Assembly (NCBI RefSeq): GCF_036373705.1
Contig: NC_089863.1
Coordinates: 30,464,227 to 30,528,226, forward strand
Source: Amia ocellicauda
Lineage: Eukaryota; Chordata; Actinopteri; Amiiformes; Amiidae
Length of the DNA stretch: 64,000 nt
Direction of reading: 5' to 3'
Position numbers and translations under genes: made by a program. This document shows, one piece after another, positions 3,631 through 64,000 of the stretch (its first letter is position 1; the number at the start of each line of letters is the position of its first letter). A model generated the notes under the pieces. It saw nothing but the letters and a program-made list of their open reading frames with translations. It made no database searches and had not been told where the DNA came from.

Positions 3631-3970
3631 AAGAAACATAAGAAGAAACATAAGAAAGTTTACAAACGAGAGGAGGCCATTCAACCCATCGTGCTCTTTT
3701 GGTGTCCATTAATAAGGACAAGGATCCCATCCAGTCTGACTTCAAATGTTCCCAAATTTTCAGCTTCTACCACATCACTTTTGTGAGTTTGTTACAGATT
3801 GTGACAACTGGTTTGATGTGGTTGATGCCTTTCATGATTTTGAAGACTTGAATCAAGTCCCCACGTAGTCTCCTCTGTTCCAGGATGAAAAGGTTCAGGT
3901 CCCTCAGTCTCTAAGTATGACTTTCCCTTCAGACCTGGAATAAGTCTGGTTGCTCTCCTCTGAACTGCCT

Positions 3971-12635: not shown

Positions 12636-12821
12636 CTGTAAAAACACATCCATCAGAAGAAACACGTATTTCAGCACCTACAGAATTACTAACAACTGAC
12701 AAATATCTTTTAGCCTTTCGTGTTAAACTGGGAAATAATTATTCAGCTTTAATGCAAAATAATTATATACAGTTAAGTCCATAAATATTTGGAAAGTGAC
12801 ACAATTGTCATTTTGACTATA

Positions 12822-27735: not shown

Positions 27736-27802
27736 ACCAACACAAGGACAATATTACATATACAATTATAAAATAAATGCAATAACTAAAAGCTACATTA
27801 TA

Positions 27803-29017: not shown

Positions 29018-29019
29018 TA

Positions 29020-29599
29020 TTATAAATCAGGGAACAAATAAAGGCTTAGCCCTAAGGCCATACTGTTACTTGCCCATACCATATATACAAATAAATCATA
29101 AATTAGTTAATGTTTGTGACCTATTTATTTTTATCTTTTAGATTGTGATTGTCTATTAATAAGGCAGGAAGTCTCTCCATTGTAATATTCTCTCAATTGC
29201 AGGTCTTGGCACTCAAAATGCAACTTGCTAACAATGTTTTGATTGTAGTTTTGATAAGAAGTGCACATTTGTATATAAAATTAACATTAAAGGCAAATGT
29301 TTTATTGGTGCATTGTAATTAATATTACCTTACAATTATTACTGTACATTTGCAAGAGCAGAATCTTTTTGCACGTATAAACAAACATGTAAACTTTCCA
29401 AGTACCCACCAATTATTCTGCTTTTGGCAGACTGCACATTTCTAGGGTTGAGAAATGGTAAGGCATTTTCCCTGGCTGTGAATAATGAAGCTGAATGACA
29501 AACCTGAAATATGTTCTAATTTAAATGCATCTGTGCCCCCACACTCAACTCCTCTTCAAATGCTCCAAGCAACTACTCCAAATCTACTTCTCTTTAAAC
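29020..29599. other. Non-coding interval
   Basis: AT-rich; nothing recognised. Confidence 0.4.
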
Positions 29600-31380: not shown

Positions 31381-31478
31381 CTGTGCTGTAATGCAGGGAT
31401 TCCCTGTATGGCGGTGGAACGGGGGTTCTGAAGGTTAAAACCTGCTGTAATGAACTGTAATGTAGCAGTACAATACAA

Positions 31479-35365: not shown

Positions 35366-36356
<991 letters not shown>

Positions 36357-39505: not shown

Positions 39506-39887
39506 GAGTGGATAGGACCATGGGAAGTATGTTTGCCAGGGTGCCAAGGACCAACACAGTGCACATCTATGGTCTGACGCCATACACACAGACCACCTTA
39601 ACAAGTCCCTACCATCTGCCCCTTTGAATACAGGCATCTGACATTGGGACACAGACATGCCAGGGTACATTGGGGGTGCTCACCTAGAATTTGGAGTGGA
39701 TAGGACCATGGGAAGCCTGTTAGGTTAGAATTCATGTTACAAAGATAGTGATTTACATGACATGATTGGATGTATGGATGCCATACACAAAGATCACTTT
39801 CAAAAGTTCCTAAAACCTGCCCCTTTGAAGAGAGGGTTCCATCTATACTTCCCATGGTCCCATCCACTCCAAATTTTAGGTGGGCAC
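39506..39887. repeat. 188-bp direct repeat and 40-bp inverted repeat at the array edge
   Basis: The phrase gagtggataggaccatggga occurs at 39506 and 39694 (period 188). The following text is also diverged-repeated (gccatacaca…, ctgcccctttgaa). An arm at 39676-39715 (starting gtgctcacctagaatttgga) is repeated in reverse complement at 39848-39887. The right arm ends four bases into the first lectin repeat unit. It is probably a decayed satellite-like or foldback repeat. Confidence 0.75.
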
Positions 39888-40092
39888 ACAAAGCTAGAAG
39901 TGTCCCCATATGCCATAGAACCATTGGCAAGAAGTGAAGTCAAGGCAAATGGGGTCTTAGGATAAACCATTTCTAGACCAAACATTGGTGCACATTTGGC
40001 TTCATGGCATCAGCTAAGATGGGAGTAGTGGAGAGTACACATTAAGGCAGAGAAGCTTGACAAAACAGATGGTCAGTCCATTTTCCTAGAGC

Positions 40093-40098
40093 TTTATT
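40093..40098 (-). terminator. Poly(A) signal of lectin copy 1
   Basis: AATAAA on the minus strand about 110 bases after the stop codon. The same site recurs at 46975-46980, 53839-53844 and 60628-60633 for copies 2-4. Confidence 0.7.
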
Positions 40099-40207
40099 AT
40101 TAACACATGGAACAAAGATTACAGAGCATGTGGAAGCCAGAGAAGTACACTTCTCCCAAAGCCATGTCAACTCAAAAGTAGCATCAGCCTACACAGGAGG
40201 CCAACAT

Positions 40208-41455
40208 TTACTCAGATGGCAGGGCTTCAGAGAACCTGCACTTCTGGACTTCGCCACTTCTGCAGATAATCCAGAGGACTCCACGATCATACGACACATG
40301 GCTGCTTATGCCAGCTACCCTTAGATGTTCCCACCCACTGCCAAAGGGGTTACAGGCACTGACACCAATCCTGAAAGGCAAAAGGGAGAAGTCAGGAGCC
40401 AGAGCATTGAGGCTTCTAGACATGGTCCAAACAAGCCCCTTGACAGGATCACACCCTTGTCCAGTCAGTTCATACAGAGGCTATGGTCAAGCATTTCACA
40501 ACCTTCCTCTCCCCAGTCCAGTTCGACTAGCCATTCAAACCCATCCATTAGCAGCATAACCTGCTCACATTCAACAGCTGGAACCTCACCTTTTGAATAC
40601 CGAGCCATGTTTGTTCACTCCATGCACTTCACCATCTGCGCTCACTTCCACCATGGACAGGGAGCCTGGAATGCGGTACCACTTCTCAGGGCCAGGACAG
40701 GAATTCCCACTGACACCCAGCTTGACGTGGATTTCATCTAGCTTGTTCACTCCCCAGCACCCAACAGGCCCACAGGAGTAGTACTTGAGCTCGCCTGGGA
40801 CGGCCATCCAGGACACACTGCCAGAGCCATCGTAGCTCAGTGCAGGCCTGTGGTTTAGACAGACAATGCCACTGGAGGGATTGCAGCCCACCACAAACTT
40901 GTCCCCACCAGCATCAATCTGGATCAGGTTGCCTGCCAGAGGAATGAAAGAGGGTCTACAGCAAGAATGTGACCTGATGGACAGCTGGTGCAGGTCGAGA
41001 TTTTAAGCAAGGGATGCAGTAGATCACATCCAGGCCATACCTGGATTCACCTGGACCCAGCCTTTTTGAAACCACTTGAAGACCAGGCCATCAAGGCCAA
41101 CTCTCCAGAGCCCAGCAGGCCCTACACTGACATGTTTACCAGATGCCTCTAGGTCAACCCAACCATCGTCACGGAAGTCCACAACTTTGCCCTCTTTCGA
41201 GATGCCACACACTCTGCCAGCACCAGCATCAATCTGCTTCAGGACACCAGGGACAGCCTCACAGTGCAGGGCTTCAGCTACCCACACTGAAGGGAGAGGG
41301 ATCCATTAGAGCAGTACACAGTCACCATCTCCATGTGCATGTGCATCTCAAGTGGAATACATTTCATCTCCATAACAAAGAGGATTTATATTTCAAACAA
41401 GCTTACCAATGCCAGAACCCACCAACAAAACCACACCAACAATCCCTCCTTTCAT
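40208..41455 (-). CDS. Fish-egg lectin (tectonin family), copy 1
   Basis: Four exons on the minus strand: 41407-41455, 41041-41286, 40590-40932, 40208-40370 (49+246+343+163 = 801 bp, 266 aa), all with GT-AG borders and matching phases 1, 1, 2. Residues 1-22 form a signal peptide (MKGGIVGVVLLVGSGI…), with likely cleavage after AEA before LHC. The rest carries about five tectonin/β-propeller repeats: GVLKQIDAGAGRVCGI, HVSVGPAGLWRVG, NLIQIDAGGDKFVVG, ELKYYSCGPVGCWGVN, SMVEVSADGEVHGVN and a final HVSYDRGVLWIICRSGEVQKC. Fish-egg lectins are secreted egg/serum proteins that bind sugars such as bacterial cell-wall glycans. Their paired Cys stabilise the propeller. This start is the only ATG before a hydrophobic stretch ending in a clean donor (GTAAGC). 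Copy 1 ends ALPSE. Confidence 0.93.
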
Positions 41456-41507
41456 GGTTGCTATCACTCTCAGAGAATTGATATATTAGAACTGTTCACA
41501 CACAGGC

Positions 41508-41516
41508 ATTTAAATA
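41508..41516 (-). promoter_or_regulatory. TATA box of lectin copy 1
   Basis: TATTTAAAT on the minus strand, 53 bases before the ATG, so transcription would start near 41480 with a very short leader. A CAGGTG E-box (41537-41542) lies about 20 bases further upstream and a CCAAT box at 41642-41646. Confidence 0.65.
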
Positions 41517-42173
41517 CCCCGGTCCACCGCTAGACACACCTGTCTAATCGCTGGTTAATTGATTAATTGAGATGCACAGCGGCAATGAAATGAGGGACCT
41601 GATTAGTGATAATCCTCTTAATGAATTCAACCTGTAAGACCATTGGCCAGGGTAGATGACATGGCAAGTGGCACCACTGCTCTGACAATTAAATGATTAA
41701 CATAATTCATGAAAGACTGCATGTTTTTAGCCACACATGGCTATGACTGCCACCGATACTTATTAACTCTCATATTCCAGCTGCTGTTTAAGTTCTAACT
41801 GTGTTTGTTGATTTCTAGTCCGTATTGGGTCAGTTGAGTCATGACTTTGTGTCATGTTTCAATGGAGTGATTCCAGGATACATTTGCCACTACTAACTGG
41901 AATTAACTGGCAGTTAGGTTTGAATCATACTTATGCAAATCTGTTGCTGGCAATACACAGAACCTGGCACATGAATTGGATGAATTACATACATTAAGGG
42001 AATATGTCTTACTAATGTGGAAGAAACTCAGCCTTCAATCAGGTTAGTGCGTTTGATGAACAATGAATCGAAAACCATACAAAGTTGCTCTGACGCGATA
42101 CAAAAAGACAGAGGCTTTTATTCACAAAAGTAAACAAAGATCTGGTTATAATTAAGCCATTTCTGTGCTGTCT

Positions 42174-42612
42174 TTAAAGCAAGCTAAGCAGAAGATATTT
42201 ATGTATGGATGACAGTTCCCAGGCCAATGCATAGATAAGGGAAGAGACCCTTAAATCACACAGTTCGACATCGTCTGCCAGATGCACATAATTTTTCAAA
42301 GAGCGATCAAGGTACCTCCTGGCCTGATTTGAATCTTGACATATCTTCAAGTATACAGGCAGTAAAGCCTTGCAAAGAGAGACATTCAAGTCTTCCTTCC
42401 ACACTTACATCTTTCATATCTTTATATATCTTTAAATAATCTGCATAACAAATATGTCTACAACAGTGTATGCATTCATAAACACTATTTCTTTTAGTGT
42501 ATTTTATAACAGTAGCAGTGACAGTGACAGTGATGTCCCCTGTGAACAAGAGCAAGTACTTGACACTGCATGAAATTAAAAGTTTACTGAGCTGCACTCT
42601 TTGTAAACTCAA
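42174..42612 (-). other. Overlapping open stretches judged non-coding
   Basis: Two minus-strand open stretches (76 and 101 codons) recur in all units. A 1-base indel (ccttgcaaag in units 1 and 4, ccttggcaaag in units 2 and 3) changes their frames between copies, and no splice logic links them. I regard them as chance. Confidence 0.5.
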
Positions 42613-42949
42613 GTCATCTACAAATGTACACAGTGTGTAAACTGCTTTGTAAACATTACGTTTACACTGTTTACAAAGATCTGCTAACCTAGTAGCTCAC
42701 CATGTATATTTGTACAGCTGGTTTCACAATCAGTTTACAGAGTAATGTAAAGTGTAAACTTCAGGTTCACAAACATATACATCACCTTTGGCTAGTTGCA
42801 AACATTACATTTACAAAAGTTAAATTACACAGCATTGTAGGTCATCAGGTTTAGAAATGTTAAACTTTAGGCTTGTGTTCAGCTTGCACAGCAGTGTAGT
42901 ATGTAAACTGAGTAACCACGTGTCTAGCCACCTGTAGTTACTTGTAAAC
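42592..42949. promoter_or_regulatory. Dense GTAAAC/GTTTAC cluster (unit 1)
   Basis: Ten GTAAAC hexamers (either strand) in 358 bp, at 42592, 42603, 42637, 42649, 42660, 42669, 42733, 42754, 42903 and 42944. Fewer than one is expected by chance. Two (42649, 42669) extend to GTAAACA, the forkhead-type core. Equivalent blocks occur in units 2, 3 and 4 (starting about 49456, 56329 and 63102). Either a regulatory cluster or a decayed short tandem repeat. Confidence 0.4.
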
Positions 42950-43774
42950 GGAGTGTGGCTTTTTGCTCTCTTTTGGTTTCACTAAACAATGCAGGAATAA
43001 CATAGGGAGGCAGAATCAAAAGCCATTGAACTTTGTTTGACACAGAACAGATGCATGAACTTGACTGAAGCGACACTCTCAACTGACTGACTCTGAACTT
43101 CTATCTCACCTGAAACTGAAACTCTAATCTGATATGTGGGATCCGGGCACCCCTGTTTAAGTCGTTGTACCATGTGACTGGATCCCTCAATTAAGGAGCC
43201 CCCTGTGTTCCTGCGCCGGGCCAACTCCTGACCCCAGAACTAACTAATCCCCCACTACCAACAGTAACACAAGCACATGCACAACACGTGAACATTACAC
43301 ACACACCTGCCCCACATGTCCCCACAGTCCCAGATCACTACAATATGAATTGTGAGAAAGATGTCACCACAGCAGAGGCGCAGATACAGGTTGCAAAATT
43401 AAAACAATACTTTAAATGAACAAAAACAAACAGCTAAAACGGAAAACAAATACAAAATAAGCACAAGTTGCCAGGCTGAGCCGCTCCTTCACTAGTGGTG
43501 TTACGCTCGAAGCAGGCTTCACGATGCAGTACCAACACATCCGAAGCACAATGTATCGATACAGTGTGTCACAGTCCTGTGACACCTTGCCAGAAATCAT
43601 GTGATCACTGCAAACAAAGCTTCATTACGTCACACCTGCATCTAACAGTGAGGAATTGGTGTTCAATCCGTGTGGGCTTACCAAACCCCTGTAATGCTTA
43701 AAGAGGTCTGAACCACCTCAAATCCAAGGGTTATAGAGAGGAGACAGATTTGTGGTCGCTACAGAATACATTTA

Positions 43775-43880
43775 TTGAGAGAGAGCCAGAGAGAGCTAGA
43801 GATATATAGTTAGACAGACGTACAGATTGCGATAGAAGATAGGGAGATAGATAGAGATATAGATTTAAAGACAGTAATAA
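43775..43880. repeat. GA/GATA-rich low-complexity tract (unit 1)
   Basis: Runs of gagaga, agatagatagagatatag and related text. The same tract lies at about 50640-50745 and 57430-57535 in units 2 and 3. Confidence 0.8.
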
Positions 43881-45639
43881 AGACATGGATTTAGCCATAG
43901 ATTGATAGATATTTTTGGACATTTTTTTCACATAACCTAAATTGAGCCACATATCAGAGATGCTGATGGGTTCATTTGTATATTGCCTCACGGATGTTTC
44001 AAGTACTGCAGCCTTTCGAATCACTCAATACAGTCGCACTACCATGTATTCACCAGCTGATGCCACTATGGAGTGAATGTATGGAGTACTTTGAAGCAGC
44101 AAACCCTTTTCTAGGTGCAATAGCTTCAAATGGTTCAATGCTTCTGAAAGGTTTGTATCCCCACCACTAACCTTCACTGGCTTCTGCTATTTATAGCTTT
44201 TCTGTTTCCACAGCCACTCTACTCCCTACTCTCCACTCCCTTTCATGGGAATGAAATGAGACACAGAGATTAATAACTGCCATCAGTTACCTAACAAGTA
44301 TTTTGTTGAAGGAGCTGGTGTAATCATGATTTTAATGGTCTCAGATATTTAAGTTAGATAAAAAGGAAAGAGATAAGCACATTGTTTTGAAAGTTTGACA
44401 GCTCCACACAAAAATAGAGTGTTTACACTAGGAAGTAAACACAGGAGATATGATGCTGCTGATGACAGCTGAGTGCTAAATAATGTGTGGTTGTGATCAA
44501 TTATTATTATTTTGAATTGTCCCTATACTGGAAACCTTATAGATTGTGTGAATGTCAACTACTGTACTTGTGATAGAGATGCCTTTCATAAGGAGGATCT
44601 CTGACATTGTGCGAACCACACATTGTGTCTTCAGATGACGGATTTATTCCATATGGCAGATATGCACATTATGAATCGTATCCTGAAGGAACCGACGTTT
44701 GACCCGTAGTGGCAAAGGTGCATACTGAGAAGATGCTGGTGTTACAGTAGGCCAAGGGCGCGGCTTTAAAGACAGCCACACGGCATCTTGAACAGACCGA
44801 TGTTGCAGTCCACAACTCCAAAGTGATGGTTGACTGAGTGGAGAAAAAACTTAAAATATTATAATTGAAGGTTTCCCAGATTATATGAATGTACAATACA
44901 TTGTGAAACAGCTGTGCTGTGGCATCCACAGTAGCATATAATCTTGTACTGATAGTTTAATTTATAATGTACTTTTGGTGGAGATGTCAAATTATTCAAA
45001 TGAACAGAACAAGAGCCATGAAGAAAGAATAAGTATGTATTATGTAGGTAGTAACTGGGGATTTACTTTTATGACCTGGGGCAGGATGAAACATAATTTG
45101 AGACGCACTGTAAAGCTCCAGGAATTTGTGATGACCACTGCAATTTCCATAAGAGATCTCAATATTCAGAAAGGTGTAGTTATGACATTATTGTTTGACT
45201 GACCAAGCAAAGAAAAGGACATTGCTCTCCCCTGATTATTTGAATACCTCACCGTAAATACATACACACCTCGTAGGTGGCAGACTGGGATGGATGGGAA
45301 CTGAAAACACAGCACCAGACCACCTGCCCCTCAGGAGGAAGAAATTATTGTAACTGACAAACACGATTCTTTTGGCTTCATTCTGCTTCGCTCTATTACT
45401 AACTGGAGGGACTGAAGAGCTGGTATTAATGTTTTGAATAAACTTTATAATGGTTTACATTAATGTTTGAAATACTAATATGTCAACAGAGCCAATTGTA
45501 TTAATGGTCAAGCAACCAAATGTTAGCAAGGCTGTTTTTATGAGTGCTGACGCTGCAGAAGTCCCTCCCAGCATTTTCTTCAAGGTTTTCTGTGGCTTAT
45601 CTTAAGGCTAGGGAGGTCACATCATGGTTATTGATTAAC

Positions 45640-46250
45640 AGATGTTAAAGATGACCATGGGACTGGACCTCCCCCAGTATATCAAAGGAAGCCATCTGGT
45701 TTCCACATCCCACACCTTCCCCCAGGAAGACAACCATGAACATTACAAGGGCCAGAAACCTGACCTTGAGGCAACACTTCTTGGAAACATGTGACTGACC
45801 CTGCCCACAGAACCACATGTCATGCTTCCTATAAAAGCTGTTAACTCTTGCTGTTCAGAGAGACTCCACTCAGGTGGAGAGCTTCCATGTCAGGGCCTTC
45901 CAGGCCGGACATGTTAAATAAATACATTATCTTCTGTGCTTGAAGACTTCAATTCTATACCTGGGTTCAACAGATACTTTATCAGTGACTGTATTATTAT
46001 GCATGTGGTGGACTGAACTGGTACAACTGGTTTAGATTGAGATCAAACTTTTTGAGATCACTTTTGACAGATAAGACTAACCTATTGTCTATCAAGAGAT
46101 ACAAAAAGGCTTCTTTCAACTCACATCACAAGTTCTTTTTCTTCACTTCATGTGACAGGAGGGCTCAGAGTTAACCTGTACTTATATTTTGTGCAATAAA
46201 CTTCTTAATTCTTCACCAGTCTATAGTGGGATTTACTGTAACCACTACTG
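45640..46250 (+). mobile_element. LTR-like block inside each unit
   Basis: It has TATAAAA at 45830-45836, an AATAAA at 45917-45922 and a second at 46195-46200, arranged like a promoter-R-poly(A) block of an LTR. No gag/pol is attached, so if real it is a solo LTR amplified with the unit (also at about 52500-53115 and 59290-59905). A promoter for an unseen plus-strand transcript is the alternative. Confidence 0.3.
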
Positions 46251-47089
46251 AACGAGGGCAGATCATTTCATAAATGCTCTCTACCGTTAGTGAAAGGATT
46301 CAACATCTTATCACATTGCTCATTGGTGAAAGAAGCAGGAGATTGTATTGGCTTAGGAAGTTTATCTCAGGGGTCCAATGCCCACAGTTGCCTCCCCTCC
46401 TTTCCAACTATTTTGGCTACAGTAGCCAACCATTAGAAGCTGGAATAGGATCCAGGAGACACTGTGACGAGTCCACACAATGAAAGGGTCAGTATGGAAT
46501 GTGGAAAGGGTGTGACTTGCTGGTTTCCTGTTCAGCACAACTATAAATTATGGTTTGAATGATCAAATGGGCTTCTAGGTTTCCCCACCCTAGAGAGGTC
46601 AGATCTATATCCAATAGGACATCCTTGTGAGGCTATGCTGAAGAGAGGAGAGAAATCCTCATGCCTCAAGAAGCTTATGCATACTGGGCTCCCCACCCCC
46701 CCCATACAGTATCAAGGCTCAATCTGCCATGCCATGGGCACAGCAGAGGTGGACTGTGCTTGCATGCACACAAAGCTAGAAGTGTCCCCATATGCCATAG
46801 AACCATTGGCAAGAAGTGAAGTCAAGGCAAATGGGGTCTTAGGATAAACCATTTCTAGACCAAACATTGGTGCACATTTGGCTTCATGGCATCAGCTAAG
46901 ATGGGAGTAGTGGAGAGTACACATTAAGGCAGAGAAGCTTGACAAAACAGATGGTCAGTCCATTTTCCTAGAGCTTTATTATTAACACATGGAACAAAGA
47001 TTACAGAGCATGTGGAAGCCAGAGAAGTACACTTCTCCCAAAGCCATGTCAACTCAAAAGTAGCATCAGCCTACACAGGAGGCCAACAT

Positions 47090-48337
47090 TTACTCAGATA
47101 GCAGGGCTTCAGAGAACCTGCACTTCTGGACTTCGCCACTTCTGCAGATAATCCAGAGGACTCCACGATCATACGACACATGGCTGCTTATGCCAGCTAC
47201 CCTTAGATGTTCCCACCCACTGCCAAAGGGGTTACAGGCACTGACACCAATCCTGAAAGGCAAAAGGGAGAAGTCAGGAGCCAGAGCATTGAGGCTTCTA
47301 GACATGGTCCAAACAAGCCCCTTGACAGGATCACACCCTTGTCCAGTCAGTTCATACAGAGGCTATGGTCAAGCATTTCACAACCTTCCTCTCCCCAGTC
47401 CAGTTCGACTAGCCATTCAAACCCATCCATTAGCAGCATAACCTGCTCACATTCAACAGCTGGAACCTCACCTTTTGAATACCGAGCCATGTTTGTTCAC
47501 TCCATGCACTTCACCATCTGCGCTCACTTCCACCATGGACAGGGAGCCTGGAATGCGGTACCACTTCTCAGGGCCAGGACAGGAATTCCCACTGACACCC
47601 AGCTTGACGTGGATTTCATCTAGCTTGTTCACTCCCCAGCACCCAACAGGCCCACAGGAGTAGTACTTGAGCTCGCCTGGGACGGCCATCCAGGACACAC
47701 TGCCAGAGCCATCGTAGCTCAGTGCAGGCCTGTGGTTTAGACAGACAATGCCACTGGAGGGATTGCAGCCCACCACAAACTTGTCCCCACCAGCATCAAT
47801 CTGGATCAGGTTGCCTGCCAGAGGAATGAAAGAGGGTCTACAGCAAGAATGTGACCTGATGGACAGCTGGTGCAGGTCGAGATTTTAAGCAAGGGATGCA
47901 GTAGATCACATCCAGGCCTTACCTGGATTCACCTGGACCCAGCCTTTTTGAAACCACTTGAAGACCAGGCCATCAAGGCCAACTCTCCAGAGCCCAGCAG
48001 GCCCTACACTGACATGTTTACCAGATGCCTCTAGGTCAACCCAACCATCGTCACGGAAGTCCACAACTTTGCCCTCTTTCGAGATGCCACACACTCTGCC
48101 AGCACCAGCATCAATCTGCTTCAGGACACCAGGGACAGCCTCACAGTGCAGGGCTTCAGCTACCCACACTGAAGGGAGAGGGATCCATTAGAGCAGTACA
48201 CAGTCACCATCTCCATGTGCATGTGCATCTCAAGTGGAATACATTTAATCTCCATAACAAAGAGGATTTATATTTCAAACAAGCTTACCAATACCAGAAC
48301 CCACCAACAAAACCACACCAACAATCCCTCCTTTCAT
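47090..48337 (-). CDS. Fish-egg lectin, copy 2
   Basis: Exons 48289-48337, 47923-48168, 47472-47814 and 47090-47252; same lengths and phases as copy 1, intact. The predicted protein differs from copies 1 and 3 only at residue 264 (Pro to Leu, end ALLSE). Exon 1 has one silent change (GGC to GGT). The exon 2 donor is GTAAGG here but GTATGG in the other three copies, a closer match to consensus. Confidence 0.93.
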
Positions 48338-48389
48338 GGTTGCTATCACTCTCAGAGAATTGATATATTAGAACTGTTCACACACAGGC

Positions 48390-48398
48390 ATTTAAATA
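48390..48398 (-). promoter_or_regulatory. TATA box of lectin copy 2
   Basis: Same TATTTAAAT at the same distance from the ATG as in copy 1, with the E-box and CCAAT box conserved. Confidence 0.65.
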
Positions 48399-51300
48399 CC
48401 CCGGTCCACCGCTAGACACACCTGTCTAATCGCTGGTTAATTGATTAATTGAGATGCACAGTGGCAATGAAATGAGGGACCTGATTAGTGATAATCCTCT
48501 TAATGAATTCAACCTGTAAGACCATTGGCCAGGGTAGATGACATGGCAAGTGGCACCACTGCTCTGACAATTAAATGATTAACATAATTCATGAAAGACT
48601 GCATGTTTTTAGCCACACATGGCTGACTGCCACCGATACTTATTAACTCTCATATTCCAGCTGCTGTTTGAGTTCTAACTGTGTTTGTTGATTTCTAGTC
48701 CGTATTGGGTCAGTTGAGTCATGACTTTGTGTCATGTTTCAATGGAGTGATTCCAGGATACATTTGCCACTACTAACTGGAATTAACTGGCAGTTAGGTT
48801 TGAATCATACTTATGCAAATCTGTTGCTGGCAATACACAGAACCTGGCACATGAATTGGATGAATTACATACATTAAGGGAATATGTCTTACTAATGTGG
48901 AAGAAACTCAGCCTTCAATCAGGTTAGTGCGTTTCTTGAACAATGAATCGAAAACCATACAAAGTTGCTCTGACGTGATACAAAAAGACAGAGTAAACAA
49001 AGATCTGGTTATAATTAAACCATTTTCTGTGCTGTCTTTAAAGCAAGCTAAGCAGAAGATATTTATGTATGGATGACAGTTCCCAGGCCAATGCATAGAT
49101 AAGGGAAGAGACCCTTAAATCACACAGTTCGACATCGTCTGCCAGATGCACATAATTTTTCAAAGAGCGATCAAGGTACCTCCTGGCCTGATTCGAATCT
49201 TGACATATCTTCAAGTATACAGGCAGTAAAGCCTTGGCAAAGAGAGACATTCAAGTCTTCCTTCCACACTTACATCTTTCATATCTTTATATATCTTTAA
49301 ATAATCTGCATAACAAATATGTCTACAACAGTGTATGCATTCATAAACAGTATTTCTTTTAGTGTATTTTATAACAGTAGCAGTGACAGTGACAGTGATG
49401 TCCCCTGTGAACAAGAGCAAGTACTTGACACTGCATGAAATTAAAAGTTTACTGAGCTGCACTCTTTGTAAACTCAAGTCATCTACAAATGTACACAGTG
49501 TGTAAACTGCTTTGTAAACATTACGTTTACACTGTTTACAAAGATCTGCTAACCTAGTAGCTCACCATGTATATTTGTACAGCTGGTTTCACACTCAGTT
49601 TACAGAGTAATGTAAAGTTTAAACTTTAGGTTCACAAACATATACATCACCTTTGGCTAGTTGCAAACATTACATTTACAAAAGTTAAATTACACAGCAT
49701 TGTAGGTCATCAGGTTTAGAAATGTTAAACTTTAGGCTTGTGTTCAGCTTGCACAGCAGTGTAGTATGTAAACTGAGTAACCACGTGTCTAGCCACCTGT
49801 AGTTACTTGTAAACGGAGTGTGGCTTTTTGCTCTCTTTTGGTTTCACTAAACAATGCAGGAATAACATAGGGAGGCAGAATCAAAAGCCATTGAACTTTG
49901 TTTGACACAGAACAGATGCATGAACTTGACTGAAGCGACACTCTCAACTGACTGACTCTGAACTTCTATCTCACCTGAAACTGAAACTCTAATCTGATAT
50001 GTGGGATCCGGGCACCCCTGTTTAAGTCGTTGTACCATGTGACTGGATCCCTCAATTAAGGAGCCCCCTGTGTTCCTGCGCCGGGCCAACTCCTGACCCC
50101 AGAACTAACTAATCCCCCACTACCAACAGTAACACAAGCACATGCACAACACGTGAACATTACACACACACCTGCCCCACATGTCCCCCCAGTCCCAGAT
50201 CACTACAATATGAATTGTGAGAAAGATGTCACCACAGCAGAGGCGCAGATACAGGTTGCAAAATTAAAACAATACTTTAAATGAACAAAAACAAACAGCT
50301 AAAACGGAAAACAAATACAAAATAAGCACAAGTTGCCAGGCTGAGCCGCTCCTTCACTAGTGGTGTTACGCTCGAAGCAGGCTTCACGATGCAGTACCAA
50401 CACATCCGAAGCACAATGTATCGATACAGTGTGTCACAGTCCTGTGACACCTTGCCAGAAATCATGTGATCACTGCAAACAAAGCTTCATTACGTCACAC
50501 CTGCATCTAACAGTGAGGAATTGGTGTTCAATCCGTGTGGGCTTACCAAACCCCTGTAATGCTTAAAGAGGTCTGAACCACCTCAAATCCAAGGGTTATA
50601 GAGAGGAGACAGATTTGTGGTCGCTACAGAATACATTTATTGAGAGAGAGCCAGAGAGAGCTAGAGATATATAGTTAGACAGACGTACAGATTGCGATAG
50701 AAGATAGGGAGATAGATAGAGATATAGATTTAAAGACAGTAATAAAGACATGGATTTAGCCATAGATTGATAGATATTTTTGGACATTTTTTTCACATAA
50801 CCTAAATTGAGCCACATATCAGAGATGCTGATGGGTTCATTTGTATATTGCCTCACGGATGTTTCAAGTACTGCAGCCTTTCGAATCACTCAATACAGTC
50901 GCACTACCATGTATTCACCAGCTGATGCCACTATGGAGTGAATGTATGGAGTACTTTGAAGCAGCAAACCCTTTTCTAGGTGCAATAGCTTCAAATGGTT
51001 CAATGCTTCTGAAAGGTTTGTATCCCCACCACTAACCTTCACTGGCTTCTGCTATTTATAGCTTTTCTGTTTCCACAGCCACTCTACTCCCTACTCTCCA
51101 CTCCCTTTCATGGGAATGAATTGAGACACAGAGATTAATAACTGCCATCAGTTACCTAACAAGTATTTTGTTGAAGGAGCTGGTGTAATCATGATTTTAA
51201 TGGTCTCAGATATTTAAGTTAGATAAAAAGGAAAGAGATAAGCACATTGTTTTGAAAGTTTGACAGCTCCACACAAAAATAGAGTGTTTACACTAGGAAG

Positions 51301-53953
51301 TAAACACAGGAGATATGATGCTGCTGATGACAGCTGAGTGCTAAATAATGTGTGGTTGTGATCAATTATTATTATTTTGAATTGTCCCTATACTGGAAAC
51401 CTTATAGATTGTGTGAATGTCAACTACTGTACTTGTGATAGAGATGCCTTTCATAAGGAGGATCTCTGACGTTGTGCGAACCACACATTGTGTCTTCAGA
51501 TGACGGATTTATTCCATATGGCAGATATGCACATTATGAATCGTATCCTGAAGGAACCGACGTTTGACCCGTAGTGGCAAAGGTGCATACTGAGAAGATG
51601 CTGGTGTTACAGTAGGCCGAGGGCGCTGCTTTAAAGACAGCCACACGGCATCTTGAACAGACCGATGTTGCAGTCCACAACTCCAAAGTGATGGTTGACT
51701 GAGTGGAGAAAAAACTTAAAATATTATAATTGAAGGTTTCCCAGATTATATGAATGTACAATACATTGTGAAACAGCTGTGCTGTGGCATCCACAGTAGC
51801 ATATAATCTTGTACTGATAGTTTAATTTATAATGTACTTTTGGTGGAGATGTCAAATTATTCAAATGAACAGAACAAGAGCCATGAAGAAAGAATAAGTA
51901 TGTATTATGTAGGTAGTAACTGGGGATTTACTTTTATGACCTGGGGCAGGATGAAACATAATTTGAGACGCACTGTAAAGCTCCAGGAATTTGTGATGAC
52001 CACTGCAATTTCCATAAGAGATCTCAATATTCAGAAAGGTGTAGTTATGACATTATTGTTTGACTGATCAAGCAAAGAAAAGGACATTGCTCTCCCCTGA
52101 TTATTTGAATACCTCACCGTAAATACATACACACCTCGTAGGTGGCAGACTGGGATGGATGGGAACTGAAAACACAGCACCAGACCACCTGCCCCTCAGG
52201 AGGAAGAAATTATTGTAACTGACAAACACGATTCTTTTGGCTTCATTCTGCTTCGCTCTATTACTAACTGGAGGGACTGAAGAGCCGGTATTAATGTTTT
52301 GAATAAACTTTATAATGGTTTACATTAATGTTTGAAATACTAATATGTCAACAGAGCCAATTGTATTAATGGTCAAGCAACCAAATGTTAGCAAGGCTGT
52401 TTTTATGAGTGCTGACGCTGCAGAAGTCCCTCCCAGCATTTTCTTCAAGGTTTTCTGTGGCTTATATTAAGGCTAGGGAGGTCACATCATGGTTATTGAT
52501 TAACAGATGTTAAAGATGACCATGGGACTGGACCTCCCCCAGTATATCAAAGGAAGCCATCTGGTTTCCACATCCCACACCTTCCCCCAGGAAGACAACC
52601 ATGAACATTACAAGGGCCAGAAACCTGACCTTGAGGCAACACTTCTTGGAAACATGTGACTGACCCTGCCCACAGAACCACATGTCATGCTTCCTATAAA
52701 AGCTGTTAACTCTTGCTGTTCAGAGAGACTCCACTCAGGTGGAGAGCTTCCATGTCAGGGCCTTCCAGGCCGGACATGTTAAATAAATACATTATCTTCT
52801 GTGCTTGAAGACTTCAATTCTATACCTGGGTTCAACAGATACTTTATCTGTGACTGTATTATTATGCATGTGGTGGACTGAACTGGTACAACTGGTTTAG
52901 ATTGAGATCAAACTTTTTGAGATCACTTTTGACAGATAAGACTAACCTATTGTCTATCAAGAGATACAAAAAGGCTTCTTTCAACTCACATCACAAGTTC
53001 TTTTTCTTCACTTCATGTGACAGGAGGGCTCAGAGTTAACCTGTACTTATATTTTGTGCAATAAACTTCTTAATTCTTCACCAGTCTATAGTGGGATTTA
53101 CTGTAACCACTACTGAACGAGGGCAGATCATTTCATAAATGCTCTCTACCGTTAGTGAAAGGATTCAACATCTTATCACATTGCTCATTGGTGAAAGAAG
53201 CAGGAGATTGTATTGGCTTAGGAAGTTTATCTCAGGGGTCCAATGCCCACAGCTGCCTCCCCTCCTTTCCAACTATTTTGGCTACAGTAGCCAACCATTA
53301 GAAGCTGGAATAGGATCCAGGAGACACTGTGACGAGTCCACACAATGAAAGGGTCAGTATGGAATGTGGAAAGGGTGTGACTTGCTTGTTTCCTGTTCAG
53401 CACAACTATAAATTATGGTTTGAATGATCAAATGGGCTTCTAGGTTTCCCCACCCTAGAGAGGTCAGATCTATATCCAATAAGACATCCTTGTGAGGCTA
53501 TGCTGAAGAGAGGAGAGAAATCCTCATGCCTCAAGAAGCTTATGCATACAGGGCTCCCCACCCCCCCATACAGTATCAAGGCTCAATCTGCCATGCCATG
53601 GGCACAGCAGAGGTGGACTGTGCTTGCATGCACACAAAGCTAGAAGTGTCCCCATATGCCATAGAACCACTGGCAAGAAGTGAAGTCAAGGCAAATGGGG
53701 TCTTAGGATAAACCATTTCTAGACCAAACATTGGTGCACATTTGGCTTCATGGCATCAGCTAAGATGGGAGTAGTGGAGAGTACACATTAAGGCAGAGAA
53801 GCTTGACAAAACAGATGGTCAGTCCATTTTCCTAGAGCTTTATTATTAACACATGGAACAAAGATTACAGAGCATGTGGAAGCCAGAGAAGTACACTTCT
53901 CCCAAAGCCATGTCAACTCAAAAGTAGCATCAGCCTACACAGGAGGCCAACAT

Positions 53954-55201
53954 TTACTCAGATGGCAGGGCTTCAGAGAACCTGCACTTCTGGACTTCGC
54001 CACTTCTGCAGATAATCCAGAGGACTCCACGATCATACGACACATGGCTGCTTATGCCAGCTACCCTTAGATGTTCCCACCCACTGCCAAAGGGGTTACA
54101 GGCACTGACACCAATCCTGAAAGGCAAAAGGGAGAAGTCAGGAGCCAGAGCATTGAGGCTTCTAGACATGGTCCAAACAAGCCCCTTGACAGGATCACAC
54201 CCTTGTCCAGTCAGTTCATACAGAGGCTATGGTCAAGCATTTCACAACCTTCCTCTCCCCAGTCCAGTTCGACTAGCCATTCAAACCCATCCATTAGCAG
54301 CATAACCTGCTCACATTCAACAGCTGGAACCTCACCTTTTGAATACCGAGCCATGTTTGTTCACTCCATGCACTTCACCATCTGCGCTCACTTCCACCAT
54401 GGACAGGGAGCCTGGAATGCGGTACCACTTCTCAGGGCCAGGACAGGAATTCCCACTGACACCCAGCTTGACGTGGATTTCATCTAGCTTGTTCACTCCC
54501 CAGCACCCAACAGGCCCACAGGAGTAGTACTTGAGCTCGCCTGGGACGGCCATCCAGGACACACTGCCAGAGCCATCGTAGCTCAGTGCAGGCCTGTGGT
54601 TTAGACAGACAATGCCACTGGAGGGATTGCAGCCCACCACAAACTTGTCCCCACCAGCATCAATCTGGATCAGGTTGCCTGCCAGAGGAATGAAAGAGGG
54701 TCTACAGCAAGAATGTGACCTGATGGACAGCTGGTGCAGGTCGAGATTTTAAGCAAGGGATGCAGTAGATCACATCCAGGCCATACCTGGATTCACCTGG
54801 ACCCAGCCTTTTTGAAACCACTTGAAGACCAGGCCATCAAGGCCAACTCTCCAGAGCCCAGCAGGCCCTACACTGACATGTTTACCAGATGCCTCTAGGT
54901 CAACCCAACCATCGTCACGGAAGTCCACAACTTTGCCCTCTTTCGAGATGCCACACACTCTGCCAGCACCAGCATCAATCTGCTTCAGGACACCAGGGAC
55001 AGCCTCACAGTGCAGGGCTTCAGCTACCCACACTGAAGGGAGAGGGATCCATTAGAGCAGTACACAGTCACCATCTCCATGTGCATGTGCATCTCAAGTG
55101 GAATACATTTCATCTCCATAACAAAGAGGATTTATATTTCAAACAAGCTTACCAATGCCAGAACCCACCAACAAAACCACACCAACAATCCCTCCTTTCA
55201 T
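53954..55201 (-). CDS. Fish-egg lectin, copy 3
   Basis: Exons 55153-55201, 54787-55032, 54336-54678 and 53954-54116. Coding sequence intact, predicted protein identical to copy 1 (end ALPSE). Introns and flanks are also almost the same as copy 1, so identity here reflects recent duplication or conversion rather than selection on the protein. Confidence 0.93.
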
Positions 55202-55253
55202 GGTTGCTATCACTCTCAGAGAATTGATATATTAGAACTGTTCACACACAGGC

Positions 55254-55262
55254 ATTTAAATA
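55254..55262 (-). promoter_or_regulatory. TATA box of lectin copy 3
   Basis: Same TATTTAAAT, spacing and upstream boxes as copy 1. Confidence 0.65.
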
Positions 55263-58200
55263 CCCCGGTCCACCGCTAGACACACCTGTCTAATCGCTGG
55301 TTAATTGATTAATTGAGATGCACAGCGGCAATGAAATGAGGGACCTGATTAGTGATAATCCTCTTAATGAATTCAACCTGTAAGACCATTGGCCAGGGTA
55401 GATGACATGGCAAGTGGCACCACTGCTCTGACAATTAAATGATTAACATAATTCATGAAAGACTGCATGTTTTTAGCCACACATGGCTATGACTGCCACC
55501 GATACTTATTAACTCTCATATTCCAGCTGCTGTTTAAGTTCTAACTGTGTTTGTTGATTTCTAGTCCGTATTGGGTCAGTTGAGTCATGACTTTGTGTCA
55601 TGTTTCAATGGAGTGATTCCAGGATACATTTGCCACTACTAACTGGAATTAACTGGCAGTTAGGTTTGAATCATACTTATGCAAATCTGTTGCTGGCAAT
55701 ACACAGAACCTGGCACATGAATTGGATGAATTACATACATTAAGGGAATATGTCTTACTAATGTGGAAGAAACTCAGCCTTCAATCAGGTTAGTGCGTTT
55801 GATGAACAATGAATCGAAAACCATACAAAGTTGCTCTGACGCGATACAAAAAGACAGAGGCTTTTATTCACAAAAGTAAACAAAGATCTGGTTATAATTA
55901 AGCCATTTCTGTGCTGTCTTTAAAGCAAGCTAAGCAGAAGATATTTATGTATGGATGACAGTTCCCAGGCCAATGCATAGATAAGGGAAGAGACCCTTAA
56001 ATCACACAGTTCGACATCGTCTGCCAGATGCACATAATTTTTCAAAGAGCGATCAAGGTACCTCCTGGCCTGATTCGAATCTTGACATATCTTCAAGTAT
56101 ACAGGCAGTAAAGCCTTGGCAAAGAGAGACATTCAAGTCTTCCTTCCACACTTACATCTTTCATATCTTTATATATCTTTAAATAATCTGCATAACAAAT
56201 ATGTCTACAACAGTGTATGCATTCATAAACAGTATTTCTTTTAGTGTATTTTATAACAGTAGCAGTGACAGTGACAGTGATGTCCCCTGTGAACAAGAGC
56301 AAGTACTCGACACTGCATGAAATTAAAAGTTTACTGAGCTGCACTCTTTGTAAACTCAAGTCATCTACAAATGTACACAGTGTGTAAACTGCTTTGTAAA
56401 CATTACGTTTACACTGTTTACAAAGATCTGCTAACCTAGTAGCTCACCATGTATATTTGTACAGCTGGTTTCACAATCAGTTTACAGAGTAATGTAAAGT
56501 GTAAACTTCAGGTTCACAAACATATACATCACCTTTGGCTAGTTGCAAACATTACATTTACAAAAGTTAAATTACACAGCATTGTAGGTCATCAGGTTTA
56601 GAAATGTTAAACTTTAGGCTTGTGTTCAGCTTGCACAGCAGTGTAGTATGTAAACTGAGTAACCACGTGTCTAGCCACCTGTAGTTACTTGTAAACGGAG
56701 TGTGGCTTTTTGCTCTCTTTTGGTTTCACTAAACAATGCAGGAATAACATAGGGAGGCAGAATCAAAAGCCATTGAACTTTGTTTGACACAGAACAGATG
56801 CATGAACTTGACTGAAGCGACACTCTCAACTGACTGACTCTGAACTTCTATCTCACCTGAAACTGAAACTCTAATCTGATATGTGGGATCCGGGCACCCC
56901 TGTTTAAGTCGTTGTACCATGTGACTGGATCCCTCAATTAAGGAGCCCCCTGTGTTCCTGCGCCGGGCCAACTCCTGACCCCAGAACTAACTAATCCCCC
57001 ACTACCAACAGTAACACAAGCACATGCACAACACGTGAACATTACACACACACCTGCCCCACATGTCCCCACAGTCCCAGATCACTACAATATGAATTGT
57101 GAGAAAGATGTCACCACAGCAGAGGCGCAGATACAGGTTGCAAAATTAAAACAATACTTTAAATGAACAAAAACAAACAGCTAAAACGGAAAACAAATAC
57201 AAAATAAGCACAAGTTGCCAGGCTGAGCCGCTCCTTCACTAGTGGTGTTACGCTCGAAGCAGGCTTCACGATGCAGTACCAACACATCCGAAGCACAATG
57301 TATCGATACAGTGTGTCACAATCCGTGTGGGCTTACCAAACCCCTGTAATGCTTAAAGAGGTCTGAACCACCTCAAATCCAAGGGTTATAGAGAGGAGAC
57401 AGATTTGTGGTCGCTACAGAATACATTTATTGAGAGAGAGCCAGAGAGAGCTAGAGATATATAGTTAGACAGACGTACAGATTGCGATAGAAGATAGGGA
57501 GATAGATAGAGATATAGATTTAAAGACAGTAATAAAGACATGGATTTAGCCATAGATTGATAGATATTTTTGGACATTTTTTTCACATAACCTAAATTGA
57601 GCCACATATCAGAGATGCTGATGGGTTCATTTGTATATTGCCTCACGGATGTTTCAAGTACTGCAGCCTTTCGAATCACTCAATACAGTCGCACTACCAT
57701 GTATTCACCAGCTGATGCCACTATGGAGTGAATGTATGGAGTACTTTGAAGCAGCAAACCCTTTTCTAGGTGCAATAGCTTCAAATGGTTCAATGCTTCT
57801 GAAAGGTTTGTATCCCCATCACTAACCTTCACTGGCTTCTGCTATTTATAGCTTTTCTGTTTCCACAGCCACTCTACTCCCTACTCTCCACTCCCTTTCA
57901 TGGGAATGAATTGAGACACAGAGATTAATAACTGCCATCAGTTACCTAACAAGTATTTTGTTGAAGGAGCTGGTGTAATCATGATTTTAATGGTCTCAGA
58001 TATTTAAGTTAGATAAAAAGGAAAGAGATAAGCACATTGTTTTGAAAGTTTGACAGCTCCACACAAAAATAGAGTGTTTACACTAGGAAGTAAACACAGG
58101 AGATATGATGCTGCTGATGACAGCTGAGTGCTAAATAATGTGTGGTTGTGTTCAATTATTATTATTTTGAATTGTCCCTATACTGGAAACCTTATAGATT

Positions 58201-60742
58201 GTGTGAATGTCAACTACTGTACTTGTGATAGAGATGCCTTTCATAAAAGGATCTCTGACGTTGTGCGAACCACACATTGTGTCTTCAGATGACGGATTTA
58301 TTCCATATGGCAGATATGCACATTATGAATCGTATCCTGAAGGAACCGACGTTTGACCCGTAGTGGCAAAGGTGCATACTGAGAAGATGCTGGTGTTACA
58401 GTAGGCCGAGGGCGCTGCTTTAAAGACAGCCACACGGCATCTTGAACAGACCGATGTTGCAGTCCACAACGCCAAAGTGATGGTTGACTGAGTGGAGAAA
58501 AAACTTAAAATATTATAATTGAAGGTTTCCCAGATTATATGAATGTACAATACATTGTGAAACAGCTGTGCTGTGGCATCCACAGTAGCATATAATCTTG
58601 TACTGATAGTTTAATTTATAATGTACTTTTGGTGGAGATGTCAAATTATTCAAATGAACAGAACAAGAGCCATGAAGAAAGAATAAGTATGTATTATGTA
58701 GGTAGTAACTGGGGATTTACTTTTATGACCTGGGGCAGGATGAAACATAATTTGAGACGCACTGTAAAGCTCCAGGAATTTGTGATGACCACTGCAAATT
58801 CCATAAGAGATCTCAATATTCAGAAAGGTGTAGTTATGACATTATTGTTTGACTGACCAAGCAAAGAAAAGGACATTGCTCTCCCCTGATTATTTGAATA
58901 CCTCACCGTAAATACATACACACCTCGTAGGTGGCAGACTGGGATGGATGGGAACTGAAAACACAGCACCAGACCACCTGCCCCTCAGGAGGAAGAAATT
59001 ATTGTAACTGACAAACACGATTCTTTTGGCTTCATTCTGCTTCACTCTATTACTAACTGGAGGGACTGAAGAGCCGGTATTCATGTTTTGAATAAACTTT
59101 ATAATGGTTTACATTAATGTTTGAAATACTAATATGTCAACAGAGCCAATTGTATTAATGGTCAAGCAACCAAATGTTAGCAAGGCTGTTTTTATGAGTG
59201 CTGACGCTGCAGAAGTCCCTCCCAGCATTTGCTTCAAGGTTTTCTGTGGCTTATCTTAAGGCTAGGGAGGTCACATCATGGTTATTGATTAACAGATGTT
59301 AAAGATGACCATGGGACTGGACCTCCCCCAGTATATCAAAGGAAGCCATCTGGTTTCCACATCCCACACCTTCCCCCAGAAAGACAACCATGAACATTAC
59401 AAGGGCCAGAAACCTGACCTTGAGGCAACACTTCTTGGAAACATGTGACTGACCCTGCCCACAGAACCACATGTCATGCTTCCTATAAAAGCTGTTAACT
59501 CTTGCTGTTCAGAGAGACTCCACTCAGGTGGAGAGCTTCCATGTCAGGGCCTTCCAGGCCGGACATGTTAAATAAATACATTATCTTCTGTGCTTGAAGA
59601 CTTCAATTCTATACCTGGGTTCAACAGATACTTTATCAGTGACTGTATTATTATGCATGTGGTGGACTGAACTGGTACAACTGGTTTAGATTGAGATCAA
59701 ACTTTTTGAGATCACTTTTGACAGATAAGACTAACCTATTGTCTATCAAGAGATACAAAAAGGCTTCTTTCAACTCACATCACAAGTTCTTTTTCTTCAC
59801 TTCATGTGACAGGAGGGCTCAGAGTTAACCTGTACTTATATTTTGTGCAATAAACTTCTTAATTCTTCACCAGTCTATAGTGGGATTTACTGTAACCACT
59901 ACTGAACGAGGGCAGATCATTTCATAAATGCTCTCTACCGTTAGTGAAAGGATTCAACATCTTATCACATTGCTCATTGGTGAAAGAAGCAGGAGATTGT
60001 ATTGGCTTAGGAAGTTTATCTCAGGGGTCCAATGCCCACAGCTGCCTCCCCTCCTTTCCAACTATTTTGGCTACAGTAGCCAACCATTAGAAGCTGGAAT
60101 AGGATCCAGGAGACACTGTGACGAGTCCACACAATGAAAGGGTCAGTATGGAATGTGGAAAGGGTGTGACTTGCTTGTTTCCTGTTCAGCACAACTATAA
60201 ATTATGGTTTGAATGATCAAATGGGCTTCTAGGTTTCCCCACCCTAGAGAGGTCAGATCTATATCCAATAAGACATCCTTGTGAGGCTATGCTGAAGAGA
60301 GGAGAGAAATCCTCATGCCTCAAGAAGCTTATGCATACAGGGCTCCCCACCCCCCCATACAGTATCAAGGCTCAATCTGCCATGCCATGGGCACAGCAGA
60401 GGTGGACTGTGCTTGCATGCACACAAAGCTAGAAGTGTCCCCATATGCCATAGAACCACTGGCAAGAAGTGAAGTCAAGGCAAATGGGGTCTTAGGATAA
60501 ACCATTTCTAGACCAAACATTGGTGCACATTTGGCTTCATGGCATCAGCTAAGATGGGAGTAGTGGAGAGTACACATTAAGGCAGAGAAGCTTGACAAAA
60601 CAGATGGTCAGTCCATTTTCCTAGAGCTTTATTATTAACACATGGAACAAAGATTACAGAGCATGTGGAAGCCAGAGAAGTACACTTCTCCCAAAGCCAT
60701 GTCAACTCAAAAGTAGCATCAGCCTACACAAGAGGCCAACAT

Positions 60743-61990
60743 TTACTCAGATAGCAGGGCTTCAGAGAACCTGCACTTCTGGACTTCGCCACTTCTGCAG
60801 ATAATCCAGAGGACTCCACGATCATACGACACATGGCTGCTTATGCCAGCTACCCTTAGATGTTCCCACCCACTGCCAAAGGGGTTACAGGCACTGACAC
60901 CAATCCTGAAAGGCAAAAGGGAGAAGTCAGGAGCCAGAGCATTGAGGCTTCTAGACATGGTCCAAACAAGCCCCTTGACAGGATCACACCCTTGTCCAGT
61001 CAGTTCATACAGAGGCTATGGTCAAGCATTTCACAACCTTCCTCTCCCCAGTCCAGTTCGACTAGCCATTCAAACCCATCCATTAGCAGCATAACCTGCT
61101 CACATTCAACAGCTGGAACCTCACCTTTTGAATACCGAGCCATGTTTGTTCACTCCATGCACTTCACCATCTGCGCTCACTTCCACCATGGACAGGGAGC
61201 CTGGAATGCGGTACCACTTCTCAGGGCCAGGACAGGAATTCCCACTGACACCCAGCTTGACGTGGATTTCATCTAGCTTGTTCACTCCCCAGCACCCAAC
61301 AGGCCCACAGGAGTAGTACTTGAGCTCGCCTGGGACGGCCATCCAGGACACACTGCCAGAGCCATCGTAGCTCAGTGCAGGCCTGTGGTTTAGACAGACA
61401 ATGCCACTGGAGGGATTGCAGCCCACCACAAACTTGTCCCCACCAGCATCAATCTGGATCAGGTTGCCTGCCAGAGGAATGAAAGAGGGTCTACAGCAAG
61501 AATGTGACCTGATGGACAGCTGGTGCAGGTCGAGATTTTAAGCAAGGGATGCAGTAGATCACATCCAGGCCATACCTGGATTCACCTGGACCCAGCCTTT
61601 TTGAAACCACTTGAAGACCAGGCCATCAAGGCCAACTCTCCAGAGCCCAGCAGGCCCTACACTGACATGTTTACCAGATGCCTCTAGGTCAACCCAACCA
61701 TCGTCACGGAAGTCCACAACTTTGCCCTCTTTCGAGATGCCACACACTCTGCCAGCACCAGCATCAATCTGCTTCAGGACACCAGGGACAGCCTCACAGT
61801 GCAGGGCTTCAGCTACCCACACTGAAGGGAGAGGGATCCATTAGAGCAGTACACAGTCACCATCTCCATGTGCATGTGCATCTCAAGTGGAATACATTTC
61901 ATCTCCATAACAAAGAGGATTTATATTTCAAACAAGCTTACCAATGCCAGAACCCACCAACAAAACCACACCAACAATCCCTCCTTTCAT
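60743..61990 (-). CDS. Fish-egg lectin, copy 4
   Basis: Exons 61942-61990, 61576-61821, 61125-61467 and 60743-60905. Intact; predicted protein identical to copy 2 (Leu at residue 264). The exon 2 donor is GTATGG. Its full promoter region is inside the window. Confidence 0.93.
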
Positions 61991-62042
61991 GGTTGCTATC
62001 ACTCTCAGAGAATTGATATATTAGAACTGTTCACACACAGGC

Positions 62043-62051
62043 ATTTAAATA
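62043..62051 (-). promoter_or_regulatory. TATA box of lectin copy 4
   Basis: Same TATTTAAAT, spacing and upstream boxes as copy 1. Confidence 0.65.
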
Positions 62052-64000
62052 CCCCGGTCCACCGCTAGACACACCTGTCTAATCGCTGGTTAATTGATTA
62101 ATTGAGATGCACAGCGGCAATGAAATGAGGGACCTGATTAGTGATAATCCTCTTAATGAATTCAACCTGTAAGACCATTGGCCAGGGTAGATGACATGGC
62201 AAGTGGCACCACTGCTCTGACAATTAAATGATTAACATAATTCATGAAAGACTGCATGTTTTTAGCCACACATGGCTATGACTGCCACCGATACTTATTA
62301 ACTCTCATATTCCAGCTGCTGTTTGAGTTCTAACTGTGTTTGTTGATTTCTAGTCCGTATTGGGTCAGTTGAGTCATGACTTTGTGTCATGTTTCAATGG
62401 AGTGATTCCAGGATACATTTGCCACTACTAACTGGAATTAACTGGCAGTTAGGTTTGAATCATACTTATGCAAATCTGTTGCTGGCAATACACAGAACCT
62501 GGCACATGAATTGGATGAATTACATACATTAAGGGAATATGTCTTACTAATGTGGAAGAAACTCAGCCTTCAATCAGGTTAGTGCGTTTGTTGAACAATG
62601 AATCGAAAACCATACAAAGTTGCTCTGACGTGATACAAAAAGGCAGAGTAAACAAAGATCTGGTTATAATTAAACCATTTTCTGTGCTGTCTTTAAAGCA
62701 AGCTAAGCAGAAGATATTTATGTATGGATGACAGTTCCCAGGCCAATGCATAGATAAGGGAAGAGACCCTTAAATCACACAGTTCGACATCGTCTGCCAG
62801 ATGCACATAATTTTTCAAAGAGCGATCAAGGTACCTCCTGGCCTGATTCGAATCTTGACATATCTTCAAGTATACAGGCAGTAAAGCCTTGCAAAGAGAG
62901 ACATTCAAGTCTTCCTTCCACACTTACATCTTTCATATCTTTATATATCTTTAAATAATCTGCATAACAAATATGTCTACAACAGTGTATGCATTCATAA
63001 ACAGTATTTCTTTTAGTGTATTTTATAACAGTAGCAGTGACAGTGACAGTGATGTCCCCTGTGAACAAGAGCAAGTACTCGACACTGCATGAAATTAAAA
63101 GTTTACTGAGCTGCACTCTTTGTAAACTCAAGTCATCTACAAATGTACACAGTGTGTAAACTGCTTTGTAAACATTACGTTTACACTGTTTACAAAGATC
63201 TGCTAACCTAGTAGCTCACCATGTATATTTGTACAGCTGGTTTCACAATCAGTTTACAGAGTAATGTAAAGTGTAAACTTCAGGTTCACAAACATATACA
63301 TCACCTTTGGCTAGTTGCAAACATTACATTTACAAAAGTTAAATTACACAGCATTGTAGGTCATCAGGTTTAGAAATGTTAAACTTTAGGCTTGTGTTCA
63401 GCTTGCACAGCAGTGTAGTATGTAAACTGAGTAACCACGTGTCTAGCCACCTGTAGTTACTTGTAAACGGAGTGTGGCTTTTTGCTCTCTTTTGGTTTCA
63501 CTAAACAATGCAGGAATAACATAGGGAGGCAGAATCAAAAGCCATTGAACTTTGTTTGACACAGAACAGATGCATGAACTTGACTGAAGCGACACTCTCA
63601 ACTGACTGACTCTGAACTTCTATCTCACCTGAAACTGAAACTCTAATCTGATATGTGGGATCCGGGCACCCCTGTTTAAGTCGTTGTACCATGTGACTGG
63701 ATCCCTCAATTAAGGAGCCCCCTGTGTTCCTGCGCCGGGCCAACTCCTGACCCCAGAACTAACTAATCCCCCACTACCAACAGTAACACAAGCACATGCA
63801 CAACACGTGAACATTACACACACACCTGCCCCACATGTCCCCACAGTCCCAGATCACTACAATATGAATTGTGAGAAAGATGTCACCACAGCAGAGGCGC
63901 AGATACAGGTTGCAAAATTAAAACAATACTTTAAATGAACAAAAACAAACAGCTAAAACGGAAAACAAATACAAAATAAGCACAAGTTGCCAGGCTGAGC

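Follow-up and report, generated by a model that had tools for sequence, protein, structure and literature searches.

Evidence for a recent tandem array of predicted fish-egg lectin genes and for exchange among its units in Amia ocellicauda

The fish-egg lectin of carp (FEL, fishelectin; PDB 4ruq, 4rus; Tectonin family PF19193) is described in the available passages of PMC9316650 as a six-bladed propeller, with a structure also solved with N-acetylglucosamine. The same passages class it among the C-type lectins, for which the Tectonin match reported below gives no support. The available text of PMC13079451, citing earlier work, describes zebrafish fish-egg lectin as an opsonin of maternal origin. 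It is stated there to interact with bacteria of both Gram types, positive and negative, and its injection into embryos to improve their survival under bacterial attack. Fish-egg lectins are present in zebrafish egg and perivitelline-fluid proteomes (PMC5690628, PMC13079451). Excerpts of these two sources count several fish-egg-lectin-like proteins, four (PMC5690628) or two (PMC13079451); by their name they fall in the same family as the lectin studied here, and they are reported as proteins. Siberian sturgeon proteomics lists a fish-egg lectin where it deals with the proteins of ovarian fluid and eggs (PMC11077782). Excerpts from other studies place a fish-egg lectin among the most abundant stomach proteins of Atlantic salmon (PMC10761930) and report one as raised in inflamed fish gut (PMC5093735). 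The available part of the mucosal-lectin review PMC6100423 names tectonin-type lectins, and no passage on fish-egg lectins was found in it. Among the titles and abstract openings listed in searches of the open-licence literature, none was recognised as describing an array of fish-egg lectin genes or the copy number of one; PMC10620220 names fish egg lectin and gene duplication.

Self-BLAST of the window (the whole stretch of DNA that was analysed, 64,000 nucleotides) returned long direct repeats from position 39884 through the window end at 64000, made up of units lying head to tail (Table 1). Because of the length and identity of these repeats, which are too long and too alike, chance is excluded. 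A sequence-only reading of the locus had claimed four complete lectin genes in near-identical tandem units of 6.8-6.9 kb, and self-BLAST and alignment agree with it. It had also claimed that the array continues past the window, as is indeed seen where unit 4 reaches the window end. The right edge of the array thus lies beyond the window, and the copy number of at least four is a lower bound. All three internal junctions (units 1-2, 2-3 and 3-4) were identical across the 60 bases compared at each, and the left array edge is the sole edge joined to different DNA.

Table 1. Coordinates of the array units, their genes and gene signals, and associated elements. Gene coordinates run from start to stop codon.
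Feature	Position	Strand	Description	Basis
Unit 1	39884..46765		6882 bp, complete	self-BLAST, alignment, junctions
Unit 2	46766..53629		6864 bp, complete	self-BLAST, alignment, junctions
Unit 3	53630..60418		6789 bp, complete; without the 92-bp stretch of units 1 and 2	self-BLAST, alignment, junctions
Unit 4	60419..64000		first 3582 bp, then window end	self-BLAST, alignment
Lectin gene 1	40208..41455	-	exons 41455-41407, 41286-41041, 40932-40590, 40370-40208; 266 aa, Pro264	
Lectin gene 2	47090..48337	-	exons 48337-48289, 48168-47923, 47814-47472, 47252-47090; 266 aa, Leu264	
Lectin gene 3	53954..55201	-	exons 55201-55153, 55032-54787, 54678-54336, 54116-53954; 266 aa, Pro264	
Lectin gene 4	60743..61990	-	exons 61990-61942, 61821-61576, 61467-61125, 60905-60743; 266 aa, Leu264	
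TATA-like box GTATTTAAAT	gene 1: 41508..41517; genes 2-4: first base 48399, 55263, 62052	-		
AATAAA	gene 1: 40093..40098; genes 2-4: first base 46980, 53844, 60633	-	gene 1: about 110 nt past stop	
LTR-like element	45643..45969	+	327 bp, TG...CA, flanked on each side by ACAGA, within unit 1	
Inverted-repeat arms	39676-39715 and 39848-39887		40 bp, 93% complementary	

Each unit carries one four-exon gene, all four on the minus strand (a point on which the sequence-only reading was silent), with 801 coding bases including the stop and GT/AG boundaries at every intron. The coding sequences of genes 1 and 3 are identical, and only two coding differences exist across the four copies: a silent one at codon 15 (unit 2) and the Pro/Leu change at 264, the sole amino-acid difference. 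Both the Pro264 and Leu264 forms of the sequence-only reading were therefore recovered, in units 1/3 and 2/4, respectively, and its view that splice sites, TATA and poly(A) signals are kept in all four copies was confirmed by the GT/AG introns, the GTATTTAAAT box and AATAAA. The 120 bases 5' of the start codon show no difference among the four copies, and the 150 bases 3' of the stop contain one variable base, in unit 4. Upstream of the TATA box lies an A/T-rich stretch that may resemble an HNF1 site. A later exon-4 acceptor (255 aa) was rejected, as it leaves a gap against the carp protein that the acceptor of the 266-aa model closes. A 138-aa plus-strand open reading frame in each unit (e.g. 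40325-40741) was taken as a shadow frame, since its unit 1 copy has no Pfam match and it overlaps the last two exons (3 and 4) of the minus-strand lectin gene together with the intron that separates them. No older, diverged lectin copies were detected elsewhere in the window, where tblastn matches outside the array had E>=0.85 with the 255-aa model, 11 residues short, as query.

The encoded protein is predicted to be a fish-egg lectin of the Tectonin family (Pfam Tectonin, E=3.7e-69). In the Pro264 form as in the Leu264 form, the PF19193 match covers residues 32-249 with 232.9 bits against a cut-off of 30. Pfam also gave a match to Hyd_WA, a propeller repeat (E=8.4e-08). Alignment to the carp fish-egg lectin 4ruq (E=2.1e-56) is nearly end to end, with residues 23-259 on carp residues 1-236 of 238, and 100 of 233 aligned residues are identical (43%). 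Seven of the ten cysteines are common to the carp lectin. The Amia lectin differs from it in lacking one carp cysteine, in having three extra ones (Cys43, Cys115 and Cys219), which may form extra disulphides, and in being encoded by at least four tandem gene copies. Tectonin 2 (PDB 5fsb, 5fsc) has the same repeat type but is a partial and distant match (E=1.2e-16). The N-terminus, inspected visually and aligned with the mature carp chain, is hydrophobic and ends in VAEA ahead of the position that pairs with carp residue 1. Because this position is residue 23, a signal peptide of approximately residues 1-22 is predicted, and the fold would be a six-bladed beta-propeller. A search of viral contigs with six exact peptide patterns gave no relative of the lectin, and no DNA closely similar to unit 1 was found in phage records.

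Repeats occur both in the array and at its left edge. We infer that the LTR-like element of unit 1 is a solo LTR; it is probably older than the amplification, because no indel is found among units 1-3 within 45643-45969. The right arm of the inverted repeat extends over the initial 4 bases of unit 1. It belongs to a nest of direct and inverted repeats at the left array edge (39506-39887), which may be a MITE and may have had a role in the first duplication. No short-period tandem repeats were found in 39000-64000, and the window contained no Rfam match at gathering score and no tRNA according to ARAGORN.

Outside the array, Pfam searches of the window returned a FISNA-NACHT frame, Tc1-like transposases, and retroelement reverse-transcriptase, endonuclease and gag fragments, a content in keeping with a fish genome. 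The open frame at 10656-11672 (-) carries FISNA (E=2.8e-33) and NACHT (E=3.9e-29), which we take to be domains as in fish NLR immune receptors. Two Tc1-like copies, 98-99% identical and separated by about 14 kb, face opposite ways at 12819-14016 (336-aa transposase frame) and 27799-29020 (209-aa frame), and such an opposed pair could favour inversion of the intervening DNA. A different Tc1-like transposase frame (270 aa) is found at 35544-36356 (+). Two further sequences of about 800 bp, at 3808-4582 and 31477-32274, are inverted relative to each other and share 90% identity; the latter overlaps a frame with a reverse-transcriptase match.

Pairwise divergence among the units was 0.20-0.41% of aligned bases. 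Counted over ungapped alignment columns, SNPs numbered 28/6862 between units 1 and 2, 22/6788 between units 1 and 3, and 28/6770 between units 2 and 3; for unit 4 they numbered 11/3581, 13/3580 and 7/3581 against units 1, 2 and 3, respectively. The unit alignment contains seven indels: one of 92 bp, absent from unit 3 (unit 4 stops short of that position), a 17-bp deletion common to units 2 and 4, one 2-bp indel in unit 2, and four of a single base. At least two of these four sit in runs of one base, and one-base indels in such runs could be read errors. Taken together, the 41 SNPs (22 transitions, 19 transversions) against 7 indels form a SNP-heavy spectrum, whereas read errors would be expected to produce mostly indels.

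The order of variants along the unit is mosaic. Among units 1-3 there are 46 variants (39 SNPs and 7 indels), each singling out one unit. When the alignment was divided at column 3690 (the right part starting there), unit 2 was the odd unit in 17 of the 22 left variants vs 3 of the 24 right ones, and units 1 and 3 together were odd in 5 of 22 vs 21 of 24. A runs test showed the variant order to be strongly clumped: it contained 18 runs, where 20,000 shuffles averaged 31.0 (P=5e-5). For the best split point of that order, 5,000 shuffles gave P=0.0006. Two-two splits among the four units conflict, and all three kinds are present: two SNPs unite units 1 and 2 against 3 and 4, one one-base indel unites 1 and 4 against 2 and 3, and seven variants unite 1 and 3 against 2 and 4. 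A single tree without exchange fits this pattern poorly, and unequal crossing-over or conversion fits it well. Duplication of a dimer of units 1 and 2 as a block was rejected, as the A-B-A-B likeness is confined to the left part of the unit.

We propose that one original fish-egg lectin gene, together with about 5.6 kb of the DNA around it, would have been duplicated head to tail, and that unequal crossing-over would then have expanded the array to at least four units. Further crossing-over, along with gene conversion, would keep the units alike and shuffle their variants. The sequence-only reading had itself named haplotype duplication as what would overturn it, that is, an assembly artefact in which two haplotypes of a shorter array, of one or two units, were laid end to end and copy number is overstated. 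Two joined haplotypes would likewise produce the A-B-A-B order seen in the gene-bearing part: there, units 1 and 3 have identical coding sequence and only 4 SNPs in 3598 bases, and units 2 and 4 share Leu264 and the 17-bp deletion. However, units 2 and 4 differ at 13/3580 positions, and in the rest of the unit it is units 1 and 3 that are most different (18/3190, vs 12/3283 for units 1 and 2 and 12/3190 for units 2 and 3); the left-right difference for units 1 and 3 has P=0.001, in a comparison picked after seeing the data. Haplotypes joined exactly at a unit junction would, moreover, still require at least one real tandem junction unless all three were chimeric. The mosaic variants and the three identical internal junctions thus weigh against the view that two haplotypes were simply concatenated, which is the less likely explanation and, in our judgement, quite improbable. 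We regard the array as real: a member of a known lectin family was recently amplified in tandem, and exchange among the resulting units is well supported. We hold it highly probable that complete lectin genes form a true tandem array shaped by such exchange, a judgement that concerns structure and does not extend to function.

As to function, each gene would encode a secreted six-bladed beta-propeller lectin that, in eggs, at mucosal surfaces or in both places, may bind sugars on microbes and mark these for uptake; a higher gene number would give more lectin protein. The sequence-only reading had spoken of dosage amplification, which, taken as an adaptive claim, the present data do not bear out. 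In the part shared by all four units, variable sites numbered 2/801 in coding vs 18/2778 in non-coding sequence (Fisher P=0.28). With neutral rates taken from the non-coding part (18 SNPs, 4 indels), 2 coding changes were seen against 5.2 expected (P of <=2 = 0.11), and the absence of any nonsense, splice or indel change in the copies has P ~0.24 under neutrality. Purifying selection on the copies was therefore not detectable from coding vs non-coding variation in the four units, and a young age would by itself roughly account for how intact and how alike they are. Intact copies are weak evidence for dosage selection, because they are expected about one time in four without it, and dosage is a reasonable guess, no more. 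Neutral copy-number expansion, in which the array is real but without benefit and some copies may be silent, is compatible with the same structure and rivals the dosage reading only. It is consistent with the chance intactness expected at such low divergence and with the lack of a significant coding reduction; the shortfall of coding changes and the identity of the 120 upstream bases point the other way, neither significantly, and we regard neutral expansion as a serious possibility, if slightly short of an even one. The labels "egg" and "storage" derive from the family name. One relative is described as an opsonin, and relatives are also found in stomach and gut, so the array lectin may act in either setting. 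A lectin whose main role is defence of the mucosa or stomach instead of the egg would also be compatible with the array structure, and this view rivals the egg reading only. The abundance of fish-egg lectin in Atlantic salmon stomach (PMC10761930) and its increase in inflamed fish gut (PMC5093735), as stated in the excerpts cited above, would favour such a role, but the zebrafish egg and perivitelline-fluid and sturgeon egg and ovarian-fluid proteomes (PMC5690628, PMC13079451, PMC11077782) speak against it; we hold it to be possible though somewhat doubtful.

Copy-number variation between individuals is plausible. Units so alike are expected to collapse in short-read assemblies, leading to an undercount. 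That the array is long, with a copy number that differs between individuals and determines how much of an antimicrobial opsonin eggs or mucus contain, we consider unlikely at present. Salivary amylase is a known dosage system, and the lectin array would be its innate-defence counterpart. If copy number proves real and variable, the locus would offer a clean case for gene-number tuning of the dose of a maternal or mucosal antimicrobial lectin in fish.
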